NCBI RefSeq assembly: GCF_900104045.1
Contig: NZ_FNIN01000015.1
Coordinates: 1-42,444 of the forward strand
Reading direction: 5' to 3'
DNA length: 42,444 bases
Source: Desulfonauticus submarinus
GTDB taxonomy: Bacteria; Desulfobacterota; Desulfovibrionia; Desulfovibrionales; Desulfonatronovibrionaceae
Position numbers and translations under genes: made by a program
Part shown: piece after piece, positions 9,675-11,865 of the stretch
Layout of the letters: each line of letters opens with the position of its first letter
Position numbering within the stretch: position 1 is the first letter of the stretch
The notes under the pieces: generated by a model
Seen by the model: only the letters and a program-made list of their open reading frames with translations
What the model was told of the DNA's origin: nothing
Database searches by the model: none

Positions 9675-10439
9675 ATGCTTTTAAAAGACAAAAAGGCTTT
9701 AATCTTTGGTGTAGCAAATAACAAATCAATTGCTTATGGGATTGCCAAAGCCTTTAAAGAACAGGGGGCATCTTTAGCTTTTAACTACCTTGGAGAGGCG
9801 TTAAAAAAGCGAGTTCAACCTCTAAGTAAAGAACTTGGAGGAGATTTTATATTCGACTGCGATGTAAGCAATGACGAACAAATTGAACAGGCCAAACAAT
9901 TAGTGGAAGAAAAATGGGGAAAAGTAGATATTTTAATTCACTCTGTAGCCTTTGCCAAAAGAGAAGACTTAAAAGGTCGTTTTATTGAAACCTCAAGGGA
10001 AGGATTTCATATAGCCTTAGATATCTCTGCTTATTCTTTGGTCAGACTTTGTCAGGCATTTGAACCACTCTTTACAGAACAAGCATCTATAATTACTTTA
10101 AGTTATTATGGAGCTCAAAAAGTAGTTAGAAACTATAATGTAATGGGAGTTGCTAAGGCTGCACTTGAGGCAAGTGTACGCTATTTGGCCTTAGATTTAG
10201 GAGAAAACAATATCAGGATAAATGCTATTAGTGCAGGACCAATTAAAACATTGGCGGCAAGTGGAATCTCTGGATTTAAAACCATATTTAAGACAATAGA
10301 AGAAAAAGCACCTTTAAAAAGAAATGTAACCCAAGAAGATGTAGCAAAAACTGCTCTTTATCTTGCTTCAGATTTATCATCAGGAGTAACAGGAGAAGTA
10401 ATTTTTGTAGATTCTGGTTATAACATTTTGGGAATCTAA
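9675..10439 (+). CDS. fabI: Enoyl-ACP reductase (NADH), FabI type
   Basis: 254 residues, a short-chain dehydrogenase that reduces trans-2-enoyl-ACP in fatty acid elongation. GVANNKSIAYGIAK is the FabI-type nucleotide loop. The FabI-specific catalytic arrangement is visible: LSYYGAQKVVRNYNVMGVAKAAL holds the paired Tyr residues and the Lys. INAISAGPIKTLAASGI is the substrate-loop region. AAAAAGGAG precedes the ATG. A tiny membrane ORF starts two bases after the stop, so its translation is probably coupled to this gene. Confidence 0.95.
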   Translation: MLLKDKKALIFGVANNKSIAYGIAKAFKEQGASLAFNYLGEALKKRVQPLSKELGGDFIFDCDVSNDEQIEQAKQLVEEKWGKVDILIHSVAFAKREDLKGRFIETSREGFHIALDISAYSLVRLCQAFEPLFTEQASIITLSYYGAQKVVRNYNVMGVAKAALEASVRYLALDLGENNIRINAISAGPIKTLAASGISGFKTIFKTIEEKAPLKRNVTQEDVAKTALYLASDLSSGVTGEVIFVDSGYNILGI

Positions 10440-10441
10440 TA

Positions 10442-10537
10442 ATGAATTTTAATGATTATCTTATCCTTATTGGTATTATAGTTGTATGGTTTATTTTAAT
10501 AAAAATTATATTTCCTAAATTAGGACTACCAACGTGA
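10442..10537 (+). CDS. 31-residue single-pass membrane peptide; candidate selenoprotein if the TGA is read as Sec
   Basis: ATG 10442 opens two bases after the fabI stop and the frame reaches TGA at 10535-10537. The product is one hydrophobic helix (LILIGIIVVWFILIKIIF, about 7-24) ending PKLGLPT. Three observations make the TGA suspicious. A hairpin with a 6-bp stem and a loop having G at its second position begins 13 bases after it. The frame stays open after TGA for 25 more codons (GSKNVC..., with Cys six residues after the TGA) to TAG at 10613-10615. That TAG overlaps the start of the next gene, which has no Shine-Dalgarno of its own. Either a 31-residue peptide or a 57-residue selenoprotein is possible. 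Coding status is supported by coupling to fabI and by composition, not by a recognised family. Confidence 0.55.
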   Translation: MNFNDYLILIGIIVVWFILIKIIFPKLGLPT

Positions 10538-10549
10538 GGAAGTAAAAAC

Positions 10550-10567
10550 GTCTGTAGTTTAACAGAC
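10550..10567 (+). promoter_or_regulatory. SECIS-like hairpin 3' of an in-frame TGA
   Basis: GTCTGT (10550-10555) pairs perfectly with ACAGAC (10562-10567) around the loop AGTTTA. Eighteen bases lie between the TGA (10535-10537) and the loop, and G is the second loop base. Both fit the known bacterial SECIS rules (loop 16-37 bases after UGA, G in the first two loop positions). It is not a plus-strand terminator, because an A-rich stretch rather than a T tract follows. The short stem makes chance formation possible. Confidence 0.4.
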
Positions 10568-10605
10568 AAAAATAAAAACAATAAATCAAACAATAAAAAC
10601 AAACC

Positions 10606-11559
10606 ATGCAAATAGTTGTTCTTGATGGATATACTTTAAATCCAGGAGATTTGGATTGGAAACCTTTAAAATCCTTGGGTGAAGTAAAAATATACGATAG
10701 AACACCCCAAGAAAAAATTATCAAACGAGCTAAAGATGCTCAAATTATTTTTACTAATAAAACTGTTTTAAATGAAAAAGTTTTATCTCAACTTCCAGAA
10801 GTAAAATATATTGGAGTATTAGCTACGGGATATAATGTAGTTGACATATCATATTGTAAAAAACACAAAATTATAGTTACAAATGTCCCAGGATATGGGC
10901 CAAAAACAGTAGCTCAAATGGTTTTTGCCCATATCCTAGAATTTACAAACCATGTTTATGAACATCATTTAAGTGTTTTAAATGGTGAATGGTCCCAAAA
11001 AACAGACTTTTGCTACTGGAAATATCCTCTCATAGAATTATCTAATAAGACTCTTGGAATTATCGGATATGGACAAATAGGAAAAGAAGTGGCTTTATTA
11101 GGGCATGCCTTTGGGATGAATATTTTAGTAAACACGCGGACTGTTCCTAAAACCGCCCCTAATTATGTTAAATTTGTCAGTCTTAAAAAACTGGCCAACG
11201 AAAGTGATTTTATCTCTCTTAATTGTCCTTTGACTCCAACTACTCATCATTTAATAAATAAAAATTTTTTCCAGCAAATGAAACAGAGCGCTTTTATTAT
11301 AAACTGTGGCAGAGGACAATTAATAAACGAAAAAGATTTAAAATATGCTTTAGAAACAAAACAAATTGCAGGGGCTGGCATAGATGTTTTGAGTCAAGAA
11401 CCACCTCCTAAAAATCATCCTTTATTTAAATGTCCTAATATTCATTTTACTCCTCACATTGCCTGGGCAACTAAAGAAGCTCGTCAACGACTTTTAAATA
11501 TTGCTATAGAAAACTTAGCAGCTTTTTTACAAGGTAAACCCCAAAATATTGTTAATTAA
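10606..11559 (+). CDS. D-2-hydroxyacid dehydrogenase (glycerate dehydrogenase/HprA-like)
   Basis: 317 residues of the D-isomer-specific 2-hydroxyacid dehydrogenase family. LGIIGYGQIGKEVA (about 146-159) is the NAD loop. ATGYNVVDI lies in the substrate-binding domain; NCGRGQLINE carries the catalytic Arg region and TPHIAWAT the catalytic His. The overall pattern is closest to glycerate dehydrogenase/hydroxypyruvate reductase, but the substrate is not certain. The ATG lies in an A-rich leader with no Shine-Dalgarno and overlaps the TAG of the read-through frame from the preceding small ORF (ATGCAAATAG), suggesting translational coupling. The tRNA-Ser promoter lies in its last codons. Confidence 0.88.
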   Translation: MQIVVLDGYTLNPGDLDWKPLKSLGEVKIYDRTPQEKIIKRAKDAQIIFTNKTVLNEKVLSQLPEVKYIGVLATGYNVVDISYCKKHKIIVTNVPGYGPKTVAQMVFAHILEFTNHVYEHHLSVLNGEWSQKTDFCYWKYPLIELSNKTLGIIGYGQIGKEVALLGHAFGMNILVNTRTVPKTAPNYVKFVSLKKLANESDFISLNCPLTPTTHHLINKNFFQQMKQSAFIINCGRGQLINEKDLKYALETKQIAGAGIDVLSQEPPPKNHPLFKCPNIHFTPHIAWATKEARQRLLNIAIENLAAFLQGKPQNIVN

Positions 11560-11632: not shown

Positions 11633-11726
<94 letters not shown>

Positions 11727-11741
11727 GATGACAAAAACATA

Positions 11742-11829
11742 GGGGAGCCAGGCGGCACAGGCGCTGCAAACCCCGTCAGGCCCGAGAGGGAGCAGCGGTA
11801 GCAGTTGTCTGTGGGTGCCTGGTTTCCCT
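11742..11829 (+). ncRNA. ffs: 4.5S signal recognition particle RNA (small bacterial SRP RNA)
   Basis: The conserved domain IV is visible: CCGTCAGG, a GAGA-containing apical loop, then GGGAGCAGCGG, the Ffh-binding site. The ends GGGGAGCCAGGC and GCCTGGTTTCCCT pair to close the long hairpin. It begins about 15 bases after the tRNA-Ser CCA and ends just before a strong terminator, so it is likely cotranscribed with and processed from the tRNA precursor. Ends are estimated from pairing. Confidence 0.93.
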
Positions 11830-11832
11830 AAA

Positions 11833-11865
11833 AGAAGCGCCCACCAAGATGGGCGCTTCTTTTAT
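11833..11865 (+). terminator. Rho-independent terminator after SRP RNA
   Basis: AGAAGCGCCCA (11833-11843) pairs perfectly with TGGGCGCTTCT (11850-11860) around a 6-base loop. TTTATTTT follows. Confidence 0.93.

Follow-up and report, generated by a model that had tools for sequence, protein, structure and literature searches.

A predicted single-pass membrane micro-selenoprotein downstream of fabI and its uncatalogued family in the Desulfobacterota

Between an enoyl-ACP reductase-like gene (fabI) and a D-2-hydroxyacid dehydrogenase gene of Desulfonauticus submarinus, a short frame that encodes a hydrophobic peptide runs into a TGA codon and stays open beyond it, which raises the question of whether this UGA is an ordinary stop or a codon for selenocysteine (Sec). 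The window, that is, the whole stretch of DNA analysed, comprises 42,444 nucleotides, and the features around the UGA are collected in Table 1. A first-pass annotation had read positions 10442–10615 as a candidate selenoprotein gene, and the comparative analysis described below supports this reading; neither a genome devoid of the Sec machinery nor a set of homologues ending at this position was encountered. Judged from sequence comparison, the locus almost certainly encodes a selenoprotein, one of a family of single-pass membrane micro-selenoproteins that has apparently escaped cataloguing and that occurs in the Desulfobacterota (Thermodesulfobacteriota), a large phylum of anaerobes.

Table 1. 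Features surrounding the UGA codon, in window positions
Feature	Position	Strand	Basis or remark
fabI (enoyl-ACP reductase-like)	9675..10439	+	ORF; directly upstream of the selenoprotein gene
Selenoprotein gene (predicted)	10442..10615	+	57 residues
Membrane helix (predicted), residues 3-26	10448..10519	+	AlphaFold2; hydrophobic in all family members
UGA codon read as Sec (predicted), residue 32	10535..10537	+	TGA aligned in 99 motif-matching members; TGC (Cys) in G213
Cys codon C38, probable redox partner of Sec	10553..10555	+	Alignment conservation
SECIS hairpin (predicted)	10550..10567	+	6-bp stem, loop AGUUUA, 18 nt after UGA
D-2-hydroxyacid dehydrogenase gene	10606..11559	+	ORF; orthologous neighbour matches PF02826/PF00389

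Frame, hairpin and selenocysteine machinery

The stop codon of fabI (TAA, 10437–10439) is followed two bases later by the ATG of the selenoprotein gene, from which 31 codons lead to the TGA and 25 further open codons to a TAG at 10613–10615; the intact 57-codon frame described earlier was recovered base for base. With the TGA translated as U, the product is MNFNDYLILIGIIVVWFILIKIIFPKLGLPTUGSKNVCSLTDKNKNNKSNNKNKPCK. A single helix was predicted by AlphaFold2, with a mean pLDDT of 86–93 over residues 1–20, and the tail was predicted to be unstructured. The host genome (2.10 Mb, 98.6% complete) was searched for selA, selB, selC and selD, as had been suggested, and all four were found: selA (E 8.5e-187), full-length selB (E 4.1e-120), selD (E 1.8e-98) and tRNA-Sec (selC; 85 bits, anticodon UCA, tca in the DNA). 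The selenophosphate synthase encoded by the host selD is a selenoprotein too: the gene contains an in-frame TGA, and the hairpin after that UGA is similar to that of the window, having a short stem and G as the second of five apical bases.

The hairpin in the window is formed by GUCUGU (10550–10555) and ACAGAC (10562–10567), which enclose the loop AGUUUA (10556–10561). According to the bacterial SECIS model (PMC13188914, Fig. 2), the apical loop comprises 3–9 nt and the upper stem 4–16 bp, G occupies one of the first two loop positions, the distance from the UGA to the loop is 16–37 nt, and the minimum free energy is ≤ −7.5 kcal/mol. The hairpin conforms to all of these rules in its loop (6 nt), its stem (6 bp), its G at loop position 2 and its spacing of 18 nt, which bears out the description given in the first-pass annotation, and its fold energy, calculated over the first 60 nt from the UGA, is −7.6 kcal/mol and therefore borderline with respect to the rule. 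Among 300 versions of the window tail with synonymous codons, eight reached an equally strong stem. Read in isolation, the locus could also be taken for a 31-residue membrane peptide with an ordinary UGA stop, followed by an open frame and a hairpin that arose by chance or are terminator-like. Gene finders would call it so, the window tail is rich in Asn and Lys and of low complexity, and the stem has just 6 bp; the homologues, described next, speak against this reading.

Conservation at and beyond the UGA across the family

Among the 61 relatives searched, the protein was found in many, and in nearly all cases the gene had a single in-frame TGA, which lay at the aligned position. A 24-member profile gave matches in 125 of the 297 genomes of the order and in 168 of the 395 genomes of the phylum, and a 42-member profile gave matches in 175 of these 395 genomes and in 117 of 246 genera of the phylum; by the latter profile, the family is carried by 149 of 328 good-quality genomes. 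The window gene was matched by the family profile in its own genome with E 3.0e-18 and one in-frame TGA, and an in-frame TGA was present in every one of the approximately 155 matches listed from the 42-member profile search. A motif scan of the collected loci, in which at least nine residues after Sec were the selection rule for accepted members, yielded 99 members, a few of them near-duplicates. Weak profile matches without TGA (e.g., L108, L109, L110 and L207) were judged on inspection to be other sequences and were left out. A family member (L061) is also carried by genome G058. The range beyond the Desulfobacterota was probed by one narrow peptide pattern, LN[RK][WF]VFPK, which in a contig scan retrieved 12 loci, the informative titles of which were nearly all of the Desulfobacterota type (Thermodesulfobacteriota, Deltaproteobacteria, Desulfobacterales and Desulfuromonas). 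The family had no match among the phages or plasmids searched.

The members are 44–66 residues long (median 51) and share an architecture in which an N-terminal membrane helix is followed by P[K/R]xG(I/V)x(T/G)-Sec, a Cys and a basic tail. In the family alignments, the constant features are a Trp in the helix, the Pro and Gly before Sec, Sec itself and the Cys, which corresponds to C38 of the window protein and is invariant in the 24-member alignment and at least 90% conserved in the 42-member alignment. With regard to the tail, the original observation of a frame that stays open past the TGA holds, and the conserved part proved to be the tail Cys rather than the Asn/Lys-rich end. The first Cys after Sec is separated from it by 4–7 residues in 75 of 88 members, lies much further on in seven others and is missing in six; the Sec–Cys pair is thus not universal in the family. 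Several variants of this architecture were also observed. Some Desulfovibrionaceae-type members have a glycine run before Sec in place of PKxG, and in five divergent members (L105, L106, L107, L098 and L100) the partner Cys is located at the extreme C-terminus (GGCGGK, KKTCK, TKCR), 16–24 residues after Sec. Genome G021 contains two tandem family-like genes (L191), each with an in-frame TGA, and the product of the second (DNILFLL...FGMRGUMPRPPDVWETP...) possesses no Cys after Sec; the same form occurs in G083 (L206).

The proposed alignment of homologous small frames gave a consistent answer: TGA is kept, conservation beyond it is strong, and TAA or TAG does not occur at the Sec position in any accepted member. 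In 32 closely related pairs, which overlap so that the counts are not independent, differences in the tail at codon positions 1, 2 and 3 numbered 72, 38 and 168, compared with 304, 305 and 314 beyond the stop codon. This pattern indicates that protein-level selection acts on the tail past the UGA and ends at the stop codon. The search for a Cys homologue was also successful, since in G213 the Sec codon is replaced with TGC (...PKLGIKNCGSLPGSCKW...), the only clear Cys case. The hairpin of this gene has decayed and the pairing seen in the Sec members is lost, whereas the congeneric G217 keeps TGA together with the intact hairpin GCUGC-AGUUG-GCAGC.

Hairpins were found in 88 of 91 distinct family members, with G within the first two loop positions in 84 of the 88 and the loop located 14–25 nt after the UGA (median 21); in 67 of the 68 hairpins that could be registered, the second of the five apical bases is G. 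The stem sequences vary among lineages with the pairing kept through compensatory changes. Because the hairpins used for this covariation were chosen for pairing, comparison with synonymous-codon shuffles is the fair test, and the loop G and the shuffles are the unbiased signals. With 300 shuffles per gene, SECIS-like hairpins were present in 75 of 89 distinct members, compared with 13.6 expected (Wilcoxon p 4e-15). The presence of TGA rather than TAA or TAG in all accepted members, the near-invariant Cys past the UGA, the synonymous bias of the tail that ceases at the downstream stop, the Sec-to-Cys exchange in G213 and the excess of SECIS-like hairpins all argue against an ordinary stop, which is therefore regarded as highly improbable.

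The conserved tail demands read-through as such, and this demand could also be satisfied by leaky decoding or suppression that places an ordinary amino acid at the UGA. The hairpins, which match the bacterial SECIS rules, are at odds with such decoding, as is the distribution of the gene, which tracks selB: 167 of the 353 genomes with a selB over the cut-off carry it, compared with 8 of the 42 in which none reached this threshold (Fisher p 0.0005), the eight being mostly incomplete or fragmented assemblies, with G335 98% complete. Furthermore, the sole non-TGA variant found encodes Cys, the usual replacement for Sec, and not Trp or Arg, and UGA serves as the terminal stop in 29 of 88 members and hence has not been globally reassigned. 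Insertion of an ordinary amino acid is accordingly considered an exceedingly improbable explanation, and decoding of the UGA as Sec is the reading adopted in what follows.

Possible functions and gene neighbourhood

In the proposed mechanism, ribosomes would first translate the membrane helix and then meet the UGA, where the hairpin 18 nt downstream would recruit SelB with Sec-tRNA(UCA) and Sec would be inserted; translation would then run through the conserved Cys into the basic tail. This insertion mechanism is an ordinary one; the novelty lies in the family, in its near-exclusive use of Sec and in its breadth. Across the family, the mean charge is −0.7 over the first six residues and +3.0 in the C-terminal part. 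A slightly acidic N-terminus together with a strongly basic tail would, by the positive-inside rule, place the N-terminus outside and the C-terminus inside, and therefore Sec at the cytoplasmic surface of the membrane. There, Sec and the Cys 4–7 residues further on could form a reversible selenenylsulfide, a step suggested by the conservation of the two residues, and could thereby act as a membrane-tethered redox couple whose targets for reduction may be disulfides, persulfides or peroxides, located at the membrane or within a membrane complex that is its partner. The topology, the Sec–Cys bond and the redox role are put forward tentatively, at a little under even chances.

The main alternative to the redox couple is that the selenoprotein belongs to a larger membrane complex as a small subunit with a structural or metal-binding role, in which Sec and Cys would be ligands. 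Many one-helix bacterial micro-proteins are subunits of respiratory complexes, which counts towards this possibility, and the conserved Trp, Asn/Lys, Pro and Gly residues of the helix and interface suggest protein–protein packing; in addition, NrfD-type or cytochrome c7 genes are adjacent in a few genomes. On the other hand, no gene of a complex is a conserved neighbour, and the presence of the family does not strictly follow dsrA. A subunit role is therefore considered rather unlikely, albeit a serious competitor.

Indeed, no neighbour gene conserved throughout the phylum was detected among the family loci examined. The upstream fabI/purC/hisD arrangement was rejected as a general operon partnership, since it occurs only in Desulfovibrionales-type relatives, in which the upstream neighbours orthologous to fabI match PF13561; elsewhere the neighbours include gltX, an EngB-like GTPase gene, CcdA/TlpA, MerR and NrfD-type genes, and others. 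A gene for a DsbD_TM/CcdA-type membrane thiol carrier is located nearby in six genomes of several families (L119, L126, L133, L135, L163 and L170), four of which also have a TlpA-like thioredoxin there, and this proximity is not significant when the many families inspected are allowed for. A mild link with dsrA was observed, the gene being present in 30 of 40 carriers and 18 of 40 non-carriers (p 0.01, with related genomes that are not independent). A strict tie to sulfate reduction was rejected because 10 of the 40 carriers are without dsrA over the cut-off. In the window, a small SRP RNA (RF00169) was additionally noted at 11739–11835 (+), just 3′ of a tRNA at 11633–11723.

The start codon of the dehydrogenase gene lies inside the tail of the selenoprotein gene, with an overlap of 10 nt, and no Shine-Dalgarno sequence is visible before this start in the window. 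The overlap is also found in G002 and likely in G001 (L137 and L138), and is absent in more distant relatives. Ribosomes that read through the UGA would reach the dehydrogenase start, and translation of the dehydrogenase could therefore depend on selenium; such a delivery of ribosomes, proposed from the gene arrangement, would be confined to the genus. If regulation were the main role of the gene in this genus, Sec-dependent read-through would couple dehydrogenase translation to the selenium supply, for which the position of the start within the tail, the lack of a visible Shine-Dalgarno sequence in the window and the sharing of the overlap with G002 and probably G001 can be adduced. Overlapping genes are common in operons, however, and the rest of the family conserves the protein sequence without any overlap, so that a mainly regulatory role is judged improbable. 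It could nevertheless coexist with the main explanation, namely a membrane selenoprotein with a possible Sec/Cys redox function.

Relation to known selenoproteins

Scanning of 42 diverse members against NCBIfam release 20.0 and Pfam gave one stray weak match each and left the window protein unmatched, and a PDB search returned nothing below E 0.3. Likewise, no recognisable entry for the family was found in the open-access literature or among the 119 prokaryotic selenoprotein families and subfamilies catalogued in May 2026 (PMC13188914, Table 1), those with NCBIfam or Pfam identifiers being covered by the two scans. The catalogued families resemble the present one in possessing an in-frame UGA, an adjacent bacterial SECIS element and a thiol/selenol motif, but none is recognisable as a single-pass membrane protein of about 50 residues with Cys at +5 to +8 from Sec. 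The majority of the characterised catalogued selenoproteins adopt the thioredoxin-like fold (PMC13188914). In thioredoxin-fold selenoproteins, UxxC or CxxU is embedded in the fold, whereas here a single helix is present and at least four residues separate Sec from the next Cys. The FeoB-associated Cys-rich membrane protein (PF12669) similarly consists of one helix and a short tail with Cys; in contrast to the family, its tail is a Cys-rich CxC tail and it lacks Sec. PF12669 had no match among the accepted selenoprotein members scanned, and one PF12669-type protein (L108) is among the weak matches of the family profile.

The family readily escapes notice, since gene finders terminate the frame at the UGA. 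The deep-Sep paper (2025) noted that every selenoprotein known to date seems to possess Cys homologues and that its homology filter can discard those lacking them; the test set of that paper, which included Desulfomicrobium orale DSM 12838 (2,783,374 bases), gave six known and no new selenoproteins for that genome (PMC12013277). Proteins that, like this family, are short, membrane-bound and nearly without Cys forms would be lost by homology filters and gene finders alike. Taken together, the family is very probably a major selenoprotein family of the Desulfobacterota, carried by about half of the genera sampled, nearly always with Sec, and overlooked owing to its length of about 50 residues, its truncation by gene finders and its few Cys homologues. 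In kind, it may correspond in bacteria to SELENOK/SELENOS, as an adaptor that is tethered to the membrane and works through a Sec/Cys redox pair on the cytoplasmic side. With it, the known bacterial selenoproteins gain one of their more widespread representatives, in carriers that are central to the cycling of sulfur, metals and mercury, and its discovery suggests that further micro-selenoproteins remain hidden. Moreover, it poses a tractable question, namely, what role one Sec at the membrane surface plays that Cys apparently cannot fill.

The eukaryotic SELENOK and SELENOS have one N-terminal membrane helix and an unstructured basic cytoplasmic tail that carries Sec, an arrangement that the family is predicted to resemble. 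For SELENOS, a selenylsulfide bond has been described and a role as a reductase is considered probable (PMC10650576), and a redox function of the present family may be envisaged by analogy. In SELENOK and SELENOS, however, Sec is the second or third residue from the C-terminus, whereas in the window protein it lies close behind the helix, with a further 25 residues between it and the end of the chain. The family furthermore differs in being bacterial, in its length of only 44–66 residues and in lacking a long Gly-rich domain, and its relation to SELENOK and SELENOS is thus one of analogy and not of membership.
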